Source of the DNA: Methanococcoides methylutens
Lineage (GTDB): Archaea > Halobacteriota > Methanosarcinia > Methanosarcinales > Methanosarcinaceae
Assembly: GCF_000765475.1 (NCBI RefSeq)
Contig: NZ_JRHO01000005.1
Location: forward strand, 62,001-126,000
Direction of reading: 5' to 3'
DNA: 64,000 nucleotides
The translations under genes were made by a program, and so were the position numbers. Of the stretch, positions 5,442 through 64,000 are shown one piece after another. How positions within the stretch are numbered: the stretch's first letter is position 1; every line of letters starts with the position of its first letter. The notes under the pieces are model-generated. The model was not told where the DNA came from and did no database searches. It worked only from the letters and a program-made list of their open reading frames with translations.

Positions 5442-6938
5442 ATGTTCAAAAAAGTACTTGTAGCCAACAGGGGTGAGATCGCTATACGCATCATGCGTGC
5501 TTGCAGGGAACTTGATATCCCCACTGTGGCTGTATATTCAAAAGCTGATGAGAATGCTCTTTTCGCAAAATATGCGGATGAGTCATATCTGATCGGTCCT
5601 GCTCCTTCAAGCCAGAGCTATCTTAAAATGGATAAGATCCTGGAAGTTGCGAAGGAGTCTGGCGCAGAAGCTATTCATCCGGGATATGGTTTCCTTTCCG
5701 AGAATGCTGTGTTCGCAAAGAAATGTGAGGATGCAGGCATTACTTTCATAGGTCCTTCAAGTGATGCTATCGAGAAGATGGGTAGCAAGATAGCTGCCAG
5801 GTCACTCATGATAGAAGCCGGTGTTCCTGTGGTTCCCGGATATGATAAGGCAATAGAGAATGTTGATGAGGCTATTGAGATCGCAGACTCCATTGGATAC
5901 CCTGTAATGATCAAGGCATCTGCAGGTGGTGGCGGTATCGGCATGAAGATCGTCCACTCAAAGAATGAGTTTGCTTCATCATTGGAATCCATCCAGTCGG
6001 TTGCTCAATCTGCTTTTGGTGATTCCACCGTATTTGTTGAGAAATACGTTGAAGAACCACGTCATATCGAGTTCCAGATACTTGCTGATAATTACGGCAA
6101 TACTGTCTATGTATCGGACAGGGAATGTTCAATACAGCGGAGGCACCAGAAGCTCATGGAGGAAGCACCTTCTCCTATTATGACACCTGAGCTTCGCAAA
6201 GAAATGGGCGATGCTGCAGTAAAAGCAGCAAAATCAATAGGCTATAAGAATGCAGGTACGGTGGAGTTCCTGTATTCAAAAGGTGATTTCTATTTCCTTG
6301 AAGTTAATACTCGTCTTCAGGTGGAGCATGGTATCACTGAGCTCGTCACTGGAATCGATCTTGCGAAACAGCAGATCCTCATTGCAGATGGTGAAAAGCT
6401 TCCTTTTAAGCAGGAAGACATAAAGATCCAGGGTCATGCGATCGAATGCCGTATCAATGCAGAGGATCCTCTGAACGACTTTGCACCATCTCCCGGTAAG
6501 ATCAGGGGTTATCGTTCCCCTGGTGGTCCGGGTGTACGTATGGACAGTGGTGTCTATATGGGTTACACGATTCCGCCTTACTATGACTCCATGGTTGCAA
6601 AATTAAGCACCTGGGGCAGTGATCGTGAAGAGGCTATTAACAGGATGAAAAGAGCACTTTATGAGTTTGTGATATAGGGAATTACTACCAATATACCATT
6701 CCATAAGGCTGTTCTGGACAATGAAGCATTCGTGCGTGGTGATCTGACCACCCATTTCATTGATGATCACAATATCATTGATGAGGTCGTAAAGGTTGTC
6801 GAACATGATCTTGAAAAGGGTGTTACTCTGGGATCAGTACTTTGTTCCAACTCTTCGAAGAAAGTTGCAGCTGCTAGTGTGGCTGTTGGTGCCTACGTGA
6901 ATGCTGCAAAACAGCAGAGCAATCAACAGACTAAATAA
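5442..6938 (+). CDS. pycA: Pyruvate carboxylase subunit A (biotin carboxylase) with in-frame UAG codon
   Basis: ATP-dependent carboxylation of the biotin carried by PycB. The N-terminus ([20 protein letters not shown]) is the biotin carboxylase signature. The glycine-rich ATP-grasp loop ([12 protein letters not shown]), [19 protein letters not shown] and [14 protein letters not shown] follow. The frame meets TAG at 6675-6677 (codon 412) and then continues as [19 protein letters not shown], the family's normal next segment, up to TAA at 6936-6938. Read through, the protein has 498 residues, the usual size. A stop at 412 would remove the C-terminal lobe. The TAG replaces a variable surface-type position between conserved VI and G. 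I infer translation of UAG, probably as pyrrolysine; a point-mutated pseudogene is the alternative. Confidence 0.9.
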
Positions 6939-56396: not shown

Positions 56397-57767
56397 TTAT
56401 TCGATGCCACAGTATTCACTAACCTCTGCAAAAATGCCTTTGTAGAGGGTCATATATTCGTCTGTGGGTCTCATCTCATATTCCGACTTTACATTGTAAC
56501 ATTCTCTGAAAGGCTTACCTTCCGGAGCATGTGCCAGCAAGTTCTCATATTTTTTGTATATTTTTCGGACAGCTTCATCTGCTTCTGCAAGTGACAGGTT
56601 TGTGGCCATGTGTGCAACTTCTCCCATGAATCGGGATTCAAGTCCTGTGGAGTGGTCTGCACCTGCTCCGCGAGCCCCTACCGGTCCTATTAGCATGTCC
56701 CTTCCGGAAACAGTATCTCCAATGGCCTGTGCAGCGGTCTCATAGAACATCATGTCAGTGCAGCATCCTGCAAGGTTCCAGTAATATCGTGCTGTGTAGT
56801 GGTGCATGTTGCGTGAGACTGCAATAGAAGATATGTTAGATCCCCACATGATTTCCTTTGTTGAGGATGAATTTGTATTCACATGCACGGCACCTGACAC
56901 GTGCACACTTGCACCGGTGAGTATCTTCGACTGGATGGTCTCTGCTACATCAACGATAGCAAGTCCTTCAGGTGTGCCTATACCTGTTCCTCCAAAGACT
57001 GGACATTGTCCGCTCAGGAAATGATTGCCATGTTCAAGGTGGAATATGGACTTGTAGAATGTCTCATAGTCAGTTTTAAGCTCATCCAGCTGATATACTT
57101 CCTGAACATCTGCACTGGAATAAAGTTCATCAGAAGATACCAGCATATATGCTGGCGAGATTGTTGGTGTTCCCGGCCCCATCAATGCAAGGCCTTCACG
57201 TCCTGCAAGTTTTGTTGCAAGCCTCTCCTCTCTCGCTTCTTTTAGGGCGGCAAGCATCTCGAAAGGTGTTTTACCGCGTATTCCTTTTCCCCCCATCTTT
57301 TCCAGGGCGCCTGCATAGAGACCCTGCACTATGGGCTCCATGGCTGAGCTTAAGTGAACTTCAAGGAAGTTCTCCTCGGAAACCGTACCTCCCATGGGAC
57401 CCCCGATTATGACTGGTGGTTCAGAGTCCATTGTGTATCTGAATGGAACTATGACCTTTTCCTTCAGCCTTCCGATCTCAAGCATCTCGGAGGTGTTCAG
57501 GGCTTTGATGATATCCTCTTCGTCTATCTTTATTGTTTTCTTGGTGTCGATACAATAGATTCCCTGGGATGTCAAAAGCTGGACCGCAGCTTCAAATACC
57601 GAGTCTGCAAGGCTCGTATCAGTTGGTACGATACTCTCGCCATCATATTTGATATCATATTCCTCTGCCAGTTCCTGTGATCTCATAAACACTTCCATGT
57701 CATGTTTTTCTTCGGCCTTTTCTTCCCCTGTGGTGGCATATTTGAGGTATTTGTAGATATTGTTCAT
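56397..57767 (-). CDS. MtmB-family methyltransferase homologue lacking the pyrrolysine codon
   Basis: A 456-residue homologue of monomethylamine:corrinoid methyltransferase MtmB (usually 458), recognised by GIYCIDTKKTIK, GGPMGGTVSEENF, LAGREGLALMGPGTP, FGGTGIGTPE and APEGKPFRECYNVK. The frame is uninterrupted. By alignment to MtmB from memory, the pyrrolysine position (202 in MtmB) is Met196 here, encoded by ATG (57182-57180). The Glu at MtmB 229 is kept (Glu223), but positions 259 and 333 appear to be Gly and aromatic instead of Glu and Gln. A different substrate or chemistry is likely. AGGAG precedes ATG 57767. No corrinoid protein gene is adjacent. It leads a three-gene operon. Confidence 0.85.
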   Translation of the reverse strand: MNNIYKYLKYATTGEEKAEEKHDMEVFMRSQELAEEYDIKYDGESIVPTDTSLADSVFEAAVQLLTSQGIYCIDTKKTIKIDEEDIIKALNTSEMLEIGRLKEKVIVPFRYTMDSEPPVIIGGPMGGTVSEENFLEVHLSSAMEPIVQGLYAGALEKMGGKGIRGKTPFEMLAALKEAREERLATKLAGREGLALMGPGTPTISPAYMLVSSDELYSSADVQEVYQLDELKTDYETFYKSIFHLEHGNHFLSGQCPVFGGTGIGTPEGLAIVDVAETIQSKILTGASVHVSGAVHVNTNSSSTKEIMWGSNISSIAVSRNMHHYTARYYWNLAGCCTDMMFYETAAQAIGDTVSGRDMLIGPVGARGAGADHSTGLESRFMGEVAHMATNLSLAEADEAVRKIYKKYENLLAHAPEGKPFRECYNVKSEYEMRPTDEYMTLYKGIFAEVSEYCGIE

Positions 57768-57886
57768 AATATTGACTCCTTTGTTTTTCATTCGTGGTTT
57801 TATTTTTGTTTTATGACAATTCCATGCAAATGCAGTATATACCTTAATTGACATGGAACTTCTTATATAGTTTTCCATTTTTTCCG

Positions 57887-60511: not shown

Positions 60512-62065
60512 ATGATGGATGAAAAACATTCAAAAAAGAATACAATTAAACATGAACAAGGTAAACTAAAACCAATCCCAAAGTAGAAAAGTTCGAGTGG
60601 AACTGAATGTGATAACGATATCGCAATTGATCCATTGGAATCTATAAAAAGCAATCTTGGGGAGATTGTGGAAGAGTGCATGGAACATTTCATGGAAATC
60701 GGTTCACAATACCCACAAGAACTCATTGAAAATAATGAAATGATTAACGGTCATCAAAATGCTGCCTCCAGAAAAAGATCTATTGACCAAAGAAGAAAAA
60801 TGAAAGGATTGTTACTTGCAAAAAAGAAGAATGTAAGTGAAACAAAGTCTGGTTGGATAGTAAAAGGCAGCCATGGGTCCAAGCATTTAGTTACCATCAA
60901 TTCTGAAGGGCACTATTCATGTAGCTGTGAAGATTTTCGAAATAGCAATTACGTATGTAAACACATACATGCAGTAAGAGCAGTAGAAAGTGGAATTATT
61001 CTCCCATCTATATCAACATTGGAAAAACAATTGAATAGCCTGCGTCCACACATAAAGGAGTGCACACAAAACTGGTCTGCGTACACCAATGCACAGAGTT
61101 CCGAAGAAAGACTGCTTTTTGAAATCTTGAAAAACATATGTTCAATGATCATAGAACCCACTGAGAAAAAACGTGGAAGACCAACCATCCCAATTCAGGA
61201 TGCTATTATTGCAATGGTATGTAAGGTATATAGTATGAAATCGGGGAGACGTGCGGAACATGATATTGAAATTGCATATGAAAAAGGATACATAAGTCGG
61301 AAACTGCGTCATACTACAGTATCAGATTATATGATAAAGCCCGAGATGACATCAATATTAACAGCATTGATTGAACTCGTGAGTACACCATTTATCAACA
61401 TTGAAACAACATTTGCAATGGATTCATCAGGATTTTCCACAAAAAAACACGAGCCTTGGAAACAATTTAAGTATGGAATAGAAACCAAGAAACGAAAATG
61501 GTTGAAAGCTCATATAAATGTCGGCGTTAAGACAAATATCATAGCAGCAGTAGCCATAACTGATAGTAATGAAACAGACCAGAATAAATTTGAACAACTA
61601 TTCACTGCCACTTTAGAAAATTTCCATGTTGATGAACAAATGGCAGATGGTGCATACTGTACTCGAGACATCTTTGAAGCAATTGATGGAAGTGGAGCCA
61701 AACCTTTCATCCCGTTCTCAGATCATTCAACAGGTAACCCCAAGGGTGTCTGGGTATGGACAGAGATGTATGAGCTTTTCCAGCAAAACAAAATAGAGTT
61801 TCTCAAGCATTATCACAAAAGGAACAACGTAGAAACCACATTTCATATGCTAAAATCTAAATTTGGTGAAACACTAAAAAGCACATCTGAAAGTGGACAG
61901 GTCAACGAAATTCTCTGTAAGATCCTTTGTCACAATATCTGTGTGTTCATTCACGAACTCTATGAATTAAATGTGTCAATTGATGATCTGTTCGAAAAAA
62001 AGCAGAGTATGCCATTCATGCATGTTGTTAATAATAAGGGAATACATGTGAGCTATTCTCACTAA
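60512..62065 (+). CDS. SWIM zinc-finger DDE transposase with in-frame UAG codon
   Basis: Transposase of the IS4/IS5-like DDE superfamily, 517 residues when read through. Codon 25 is TAG (60584-60586), inside a Lys/Ser-rich N-terminus (KLKPIPK before it, KSSSGTECDND after it). A SWIM zinc finger (YSCSCEDFRNSNYVCKHIHA, about 125-145) probably binds DNA. A charged middle part and the RNase H-like core follow: TTFAMDSSGFS, QMADGAYCTRDIF and NNVETTFHMLKSKFGETL supply the expected D, D, E. Start at ATG 60512 because of AGGAG. I found no clear terminal inverted repeats, so it may be a degraded or domesticated element. Without readthrough only 24 residues would be made. Confidence 0.82.
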
Positions 62066-62218: not shown

Positions 62219-62330
62219 GCTTGTCCGAAAATTCGGGTTGTTGTCCGAAAAATCGATTTGTCCGATAATTCACATTTTTGTCCGAAAAATCGTATTTTTG
62301 ACCGATAAATACACGATTTTTGGTCAAAGC
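62219..62330. repeat. 20-bp repeat cluster C (five direct units plus one inverted)
   Basis: GTCC or GACC at 62223, 62243, 62260, 62280 and 62300: spacing 20, 17, 20 and 20 bases. The block GTCCGAAAAATCGATTTGTCC is identical to that of cluster A. The last direct unit reads TTGACCGATAAATACAC and faces the inverted TTTTTGGTCAAAGCG (62317-62331), keeping the pairing with the altered bases. The cluster ends about 45 bases before the serpin start and just before its TATA box. The rest of the 311-base gap 62066-62376 holds the terminator and AT-rich sequence. Confidence 0.85.
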
Positions 62331-62347
62331 GAAAAGCATCATAAAAA

Positions 62348-62376: not shown

Positions 62377-63657
62377 ATGGGAACGCTAAAAATTACAATA
62401 TTAGTTTCATTATGCATAATTTCATCGCTTTTTCTAGGTTGTGTTGAAGATTCAACTGTAAGTACAAATGCTACATTAAATACAGAATCAGTCGATGATT
62501 ATGATATTGCAGCTGCAAACAATGCTTTTGCTTTTGATATGTATTCAATGATTAAGAATGAAGATGAAAATATCTTCTTTTCACCATACAGCATCTTCAC
62601 CGCGATGGCTATTTGCTATGATGGTGCTGAAGGTTCCACAAAAGAGCAAATCTCAAATGTGTTTTACTATCCTCTCAGCAAACCTGTTCTCGAAATAAGT
62701 TCAAAAGAGATGATAGATACAATCAATTCTGACAATGATAACTATGATCTTAATACGGCAAATGCTCTCTGGATACGAAAGAATTATCCTTTAAATAAAC
62801 AGTTTGAATATAACTTGAATGCCTATTATGATGGAAAAGTAACAAATGTAGATTTTAGCAATGAACCAGAAAAGTCTAAAGACACCATCAATGAATGGGT
62901 TTCAACAAACACCAATGGCAAGATCGAGGACATAATTTCGGATGAAATGATAGATCCCCACAACACAGCCATGATCATTACAAATGCAATTTACTTTAAA
63001 GGAAAATGGGTCAATGAGTTTGACGTAGGCGATACCCACAAGGAACTATTCTATAAGTCATCTTCAGACAAAGAAGGAACTCTCATAGATATGATGTATG
63101 CAAGGTAGTATTTTAATTACAGTGAAAACGACGATGCAAAAATAGTAGAACTGCCTTACAAGGGTAAAGATCTATGTATGTATATTGTTCTTCCTAAAGA
63201 GAATAATATTGGAGATTTTGAAAACAGATTTGTGCTTTCTGATTATAATAAACTCAAGTCAACTATAGATTTCGAAAAGGATGTAAGGATCTGGTTACCC
63301 AAATTCAAATTTGATACAAAAACTGAATTATCAAATACACTGAGAGATATGGGAATGGCAGAAGCTTTTACGGACAACGCAAATTTCTCAAGTATTTATG
63401 ATAGCCAGAAGGTGTCAGATGATTACGGTTTGTCCATAGATGATGTGGTTCATCAGACATTTATCGAAGTGAATGAAAAGGGCACTGAGGCAGGAGCAGC
63501 GACTGCTATTGAAGCAGTTGACAGTGCACATATGCCAGGACAAATAATGGAATTCAAGGCCGATCATCCTTTCATGTTCTTTATTGAAGATAAGAGAACA
63601 GGATGTATCCTCTTCATGGGAAAAGTCGAGAATCCTGAATATGAGGAAATGTCATAA
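62377..63657 (+). CDS. Secreted serpin with in-frame UAG codon
   Basis: A serine protease inhibitor family protein, 426 residues when read through. The N-terminal signal ends in a lipobox-like LFLGC, so it may be a lipoprotein. Serpin landmarks are FFSPYSIFTAMAICYDGAEG, TNAIYFKGKW, KIVELPYKGKDLCMYIVLP, the hinge VNEKGTEAGAATA and the closing DHPFMFFIEDKRTGCILFMG. TAG at 63106-63108 (codon 244) lies between IDMMYAR and YFNYSEND, a variable spot in serpins, and the frame continues exactly. The small-residue hinge is that of inhibitory serpins; the reactive P1 is uncertain. I infer UAG translation; a recent pseudogene is the alternative. Confidence 0.88.
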
Positions 63658-63712: not shown

Positions 63713-63790
63713 AATTGACCGAATAATACTGATTTTGTCCGAATATTCATGATTCTGTCCGATAAATACCCTCTTTTTCGGACAAAGCGC
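63713..63790. repeat. 20-bp repeat cluster D
   Basis: Three direct units with GACC at 63717 and GTCC at 63737 and 63757 (20-base spacing), then the inverted unit CTTTTTCGGACAAAGCGC (63773-63790). TGTCCGA pairs with TCGGACA. TAATTGACATGGAA (63811-63824) follows about 20 bases later; the same 14 bases lie beside cluster A. The rest of 63666-63952 is AT-rich leader of the next gene. Confidence 0.82.
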
Positions 63791-63952
63791 ATTTTTTCAG
63801 CTTCTAACCATAATTGACATGGAAAACTCTTCTGTTATTATGCCTGGTTATTTGATATTTTTAACAGGTGGATGAAAAACGCAGAATACTTTCACCCCGC
63901 TTGGCAGTCCTTAATATATTCAGAAGTAATACTGGTAATTGAGGTGAAATAT

Positions 63953-64000
63953 ATGGATGATTTCTTTACAGAATTAGTAAACAGGGCAAGATACTATGAA
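63953..64000 (+). CDS. Start of a gene that runs off the window
   Basis: GAGGTGAA lies before ATG 63953, followed by sixteen open codons (DDFFTELVNRARYYE) to the window end. Too little is present to name it. The ribosome-binding site makes it a likely real gene, preceded by repeat cluster D. Confidence 0.5.
   Translation, partial: MDDFFTELVNRARYYE

Follow-up and report, generated by a model that had tools for sequence, protein, structure and literature searches.

The DNA analysed (the window, 64,000 nucleotides of Methanococcoides methylutens) holds a serpin gene close to its 3′ end and a pycA gene close to its 5′ end, each with one in-frame TAG. The features considered are listed below.

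5442..6938, + strand: pycA, pyruvate/acetyl-CoA carboxylase biotin carboxylase subunit (NCBIfam PRK08654, over the cut-off)
6675-6677, + strand: in-frame TAG, codon 412 of pycA, in the biotin carboxylase C-terminal domain (Pfam)
60635..62065, + strand: DDE transposase directly upstream of the serpin (Pfam DDE_Tnp_1), genomic context with no part in the proposed mechanism
62377..63105, + strand: serpin gene before the TAG (codons 1-243), lipoprotein signal peptide included (translation, Pfam Serpin)
62428..62442, + strand: lipobox LFLGC with Cys22, which is invariant in 17 homologues; predicted to direct secretion and lipid anchoring
63106..63108, + strand: in-frame TAG, codon 244, predicted pyrrolysine; the closest orthologue has CAG (Gln) (translation, orthologue codon)
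63109..63654, + strand: remainder of the serpin gene (codons 245-426), an open frame with dN/dS values in the range of purifying selection (translation, dN/dS)
63475..63504, + strand: reactive-centre-loop hinge EKGTEAGAAT, inhibitory type (alignment with 16 homologues)
63655..63657, + strand: terminal stop TAA of the serpin (translation)

The serpin frame (62377-63657, + strand) comprised 427 codons. As the original prediction had described, it was undisturbed in translation apart from the TAG at codon 244, between IDMMYAR and YFNYSEND, and no frameshift or second internal stop was found in it. The read-through product matched the Pfam family PF00079 (Serpin) from profile position 2 to 370 out of 370 (E=2.5e-114), and a search of the species' own genome agreed (E=1.8e-114, one TAG). 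Since the 182 codons following the TAG could be aligned from end to end with 16 intact homologues, the frame beyond the TAG is not a chance one. The hinge (residues 367-376) fits the pattern E-x-G-T-E-A-x-A-A-T and was intact, as it is in the intact paralogues and orthologues. An AlphaFold2 model, moderately confident with a mean pLDDT of 65, was submitted to Foldseek, and the top matches were all serpins, with E values down to 4e-33. The gene appears to encode a secreted, lipid-anchored serpin of inhibitory type and presumably of inhibitory function. Its likeness to the archaeal and bacterial inhibitory serpins of PF00079, of which MENT and conserpin are the nearest solved structures, lies in the full-length family match, the hinge motif and the fold. 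Unlike them, it has an in-frame TAG where the residue is usually small or polar.

Position 244 was variable among the relatives, as had been predicted, being occupied in the alignment by Q, G, R, E, S or K, and a lysine derivative would thus be plausible there. It lies opposite a glycine of conserpin, in the stretch after MM, and is likely to be exposed on the surface. The nearest orthologue (G002, 80% identity) had CAG at this codon, as did a pair of paralogues, one in the source genome (G000) and one in G002, while the next orthologue had GAG. The TAG is therefore most simply explained by one C-to-T transition in the source lineage. TAG occurred at this position in only one of 30 serpin genes, drawn from 17 of the 81 genomes of the family, and no homologue among them kept it. 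Being private to one genome, the TAG does not lend itself to a demonstration of its own conservation. It appears to be a young and more or less neutral replacement of glutamine. A functional recruitment of the residue, in which the electrophilic imine ring of pyrrolysine would provide covalent capture or regulation, draws on the general reactivity of pyrrolysine and on nothing else. We consider it very improbable, since different residues occupy this site, which is distant in sequence from the reactive loop, and since the TAG is conserved in no homologue.

The closest relatives according to PylB (G005, G009 and G010, 96-98%) all lacked a close orthologue of the window serpin, and the attempt to date the TAG through them failed. 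In two of these, G005 and G010, no serpin of any kind was found. Judged from these sequence comparisons, the window serpin is an accessory gene. The source genome also possesses two intact serpins without TAG. With an accessory gene and two TAG-free serpins retained, a TAG could easily be gained neutrally, and the loss of the gene would be allowed as well.

Pairwise dN/dS between the window serpin and its G002 orthologue was 0.191 upstream and 0.189 downstream of the TAG. This comparison had been suggested together with the original prediction. The two sides are alike, but they would be so with a recent TAG too. The intact paralogue pair had values of 0.195 upstream and 0.169 downstream. On the window branch, downstream dN was 0.055-0.066, versus 0.054-0.068 on the intact orthologue branch. 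Downstream omega on the window branch was 0.15-0.20, with bootstrap intervals of 0.07-0.32 or 0.08-0.66 depending on the outgroup, all below 1. With downstream dN not raised and omega below 1, there was no long period of relaxed evolution after the TAG arose. An old pseudogene was also considered, and was rejected given the unchanged dN and the absence of any further lesion downstream. The downstream signal of purifying selection is no proof of translation, because the TAG may postdate the branch. The same applies to the hinge, from whose preservation the original prediction had concluded that selection acts after the TAG. The hinge is indeed intact, but its conservation is a weak proof of such selection, since a single CAG-to-TAG change in one genome only may be younger than the conservation on record.

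The TAG might instead be a recent nonsense mutation, in which case a dispensable serpin would have died, terminating at codon 244, and its downstream part would merely not have decayed. A TAG that is private to one genome and a single transition away from CAG, in an accessory gene with two intact paralogues and a transposase upstream, could be expected under such a scenario. However, the 182 downstream codons hold no further lesion and dN on the window branch is not raised. In addition, TAGs within coding frames are the rule in this genome and terminal ones the exception, and we find a recent loss of the gene unlikely.

The evidence for this pattern of TAG usage is genome-wide. PylS, PylB, PylC and PylD were all present in the source genome, each above the NCBIfam cut-offs, and a tRNA-Pyl with a CUA anticodon (CTA in DNA) adjoins pylS. 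TAG usage was surveyed in coding-like ORFs of at least 100 amino acids (n=1020) within 1.26 Mb, or half of the genome, and G002 sequence was compared up to 1.59 Mb. TGA was found at the end of 536 ORFs, TAA at the end of 468 and TAG at the end of 16. Among the three stop triplets on the strand read, TAG has a share of about 18%, but it accounts for 1.6% of ORF ends and is thus strongly avoided as a terminator. Twelve of the 16 TAG ORFs went on for 50 codons or more with the codon usage of coding sequence, versus 4.9% of those ending in TGA and 7.3% of those ending in TAA. With few ORFs ending in TAG and most of these continuing, TAG is mostly a sense codon in this genome.

Internal TAGs were found in mtbB, mttB, sensor kinases and a large surface protein (named from sequence by eye). 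Pfam matches added a UvrD-type helicase-nuclease, a TatD-family protein, an EamA transporter and a CcmF-like protein. At the corresponding sites G002 had TAG in the CcmF-like protein, GAG in TatD and CAG in EamA. The CcmF-like protein (331 aa, TAG at codon 181; L043:18124-19119, - strand, which is G000 C14:218124-219119) is 71% identical to its G002 counterpart and, going by this alignment, is a case of an in-frame TAG that is conserved in a protein other than a methyltransferase. The UvrD-type helicase has a PD-(D/E)XK nuclease domain (1018 aa; L033:2163-5216, + strand), and its TAG is codon 306, after the motif NYRSSSQIV.

The pycA gene provides a supporting case within the window. An in-frame TAG was present in six of the ten genus genomes holding the gene, the source included (91-99% identity), and the other four had an open frame without TAG (84-86% identity). 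No second copy of pycA above 28% identity was found in these genus genomes. The TAG probably has a common position in all six. A clade-wide TAG in a single-copy central enzyme would be hard to explain without efficient decoding. Decoding is thus likely to be efficient in this clade, given the pycA TAG common to six genomes and the rarity of TAG as a terminal codon. The six pycA sequences come from separate assemblies, which bears on the question of a sequencing or assembly error in the serpin. TAG and the supposed true codon, CAG, are one base apart, but the sequence has no sign of low quality and similar in-frame TAGs occur throughout the genome, so that such an error is highly improbable.

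A PYLIS-like structure has been proposed for pyrrolysine-containing proteins, though it is not required. Folds of the 100 nt from the TAG were scored against shuffles, and neither the serpin (63106-63205; z = -0.51) nor pycA (z 0.58) had a PYLIS-like fold above shuffles. The matching 100 nt of the CAG serpin orthologue (L020:2224-2323) folded strongly (z -4.39). Structure therefore does not track the TAG, as the CAG orthologue folds and the TAG serpin does not. In E. coli, a cis element was neither identified nor needed (PMC8211752).

UAG is nonetheless able to end translation, as pylB ends in TAG across the genus. This was the case in 11 out of 11 genus genomes (L102:4457-5590, - strand, and L179-L189), with the stop one base before the pylC start. 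A terminal TAG of pylB has been noted for M. burtonii, M. mazei and M. acetivorans in a 2010 review (PMC2933860). In the source genome, a terminal TAG was found in pylB and perhaps in one or two further genes. A pyrrolysine-sensitive feedback through the terminal TAG of pylB is conceivable. One full-length copy of aRF1 was present, which probably recognises UAG.

Both the complete aRF1 and the genus-wide pylB ending are compatible with leaky decoding of the serpin, in which UAG would be read partly as pyrrolysine and partly as a stop, and both products would be made. The truncated product, of 243 residues and without the hinge, would presumably be inactive, and the ratio of the two may depend on the growth substrate. 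Leaky decoding also agrees with the lack of a structured element after the TAG of the serpin. An introduced UAG had a readthrough of 20-30% in M. acetivorans, and native mtmB was read with little termination product (PMC2933860). However, the shared in-frame TAG of single-copy pycA, together with the scarcity of TAG at gene ends, indicates efficient decoding. Leaky decoding is a real but lesser possibility, which overlaps with a full-length serpin and differs from it in efficiency only.

We consider it quite probable, from sequence comparison, that the gene encodes a functional, full-length serpin with pyrrolysine at position 244, and that this residue was gained through one neutral base change, TAG being mostly sense in the genome. 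As TAG almost never ends genes here and is most likely read as pyrrolysine, the gene is probably intact. Support for pyrrolysine, as originally predicted, comes mainly from the pyl system, the genome-wide usage of TAG and the clade-conserved TAG of pycA, which the prediction had not drawn upon. In the lineage of the source species, one transition would have turned codon 244, formerly CAG (Gln), into TAG. Charged tRNA-Pyl(CUA) would then decode the TAG as pyrrolysine, yielding a full-length protein, with the residue placed at a variable, polar and non-catalytic position between serpin strands. This replacement would be tolerated because TAG in the genus is almost only sense and hardly ever a terminator, and pyrrolysine would have no special role in serpin inhibition. 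We infer the actual translation of the TAG, its decoding efficiency and its neutrality from these genomic patterns.

The closest known parallel is Thg1, the tRNA-His guanylyltransferase, whose amber codon in M. acetivorans is translated as a non-essential pyrrolysine (Heinemann et al. 2009, as described in PMC2933860). Like the serpin it is a non-methyltransferase, its in-frame amber is present in one species only, and it is explained by neutral evolution. Thg1 thereby serves as the precedent. The window gene differs in being a predicted exported serpin with CAG as its ancestral codon, and its reading as pyrrolysine is a prediction. MtmB, MtbB and MttB also have an in-frame TAG that is decoded with PylS and tRNA-Pyl, and mtbB and mttB of the source genome carry it. 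The methyltransferases conserve this TAG and have pyrrolysine in their active site, whereas neither is true of the serpin. The lack of TAG conservation in the serpin is no bar to its decoding, since conservation is a feature of the methyltransferases and is not needed in neutral cases such as Thg1.

A genetic code of archaea with every TAG read as pyrrolysine, the 'Pyl code', was reportedly described in 2025, Methanococcoides burtonii being among the species said to use it. The source genome resembles it in the genome-wide reading of TAG as sense and belongs to the same genus, but TAG still terminates pylB and perhaps one or two further genes. It seems somewhat more probable than the contrary that, in one clade of the genus, TAG has been effectively reassigned to pyrrolysine proteome-wide, with pycA and the exported serpin as routine carriers and pylB as a pyrrolysine-sensitive exception. 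A literature search did not find a pyrrolysine-containing serpin. If the serpin is translated as proposed, it extends pyrrolysine proteins beyond the methylamine enzymes to an exported protein, and pyrrolysine would enter ordinary proteins through a single neutral mutation once TAG no longer terminates. Standard gene callers split such genes, so that the serpin, pycA and about a dozen others in the surveyed half of the genome have probably been annotated as truncated or dead.

The window also contains an MtmB-family protein without TAG (56397-57878, - strand, 493 aa), about 33% identical to MtmB of G002. It has methionine at the pyrrolysine site (GLALMGPG versus GMAV*GPE) and adjoins a Cdc6-like ATPase and a hydantoinase/oxoprolinase-like protein. 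Intergenic repeats of the GTCCGAAAAATCG type flank the serpin (62241-62331 and 63715-63789) and are dispersed in other genus genomes too. A further segment (63873-64000) is repeated in most genus genomes with 84-94% identity. It continues past the end of the window and is possibly the start of an insertion element.
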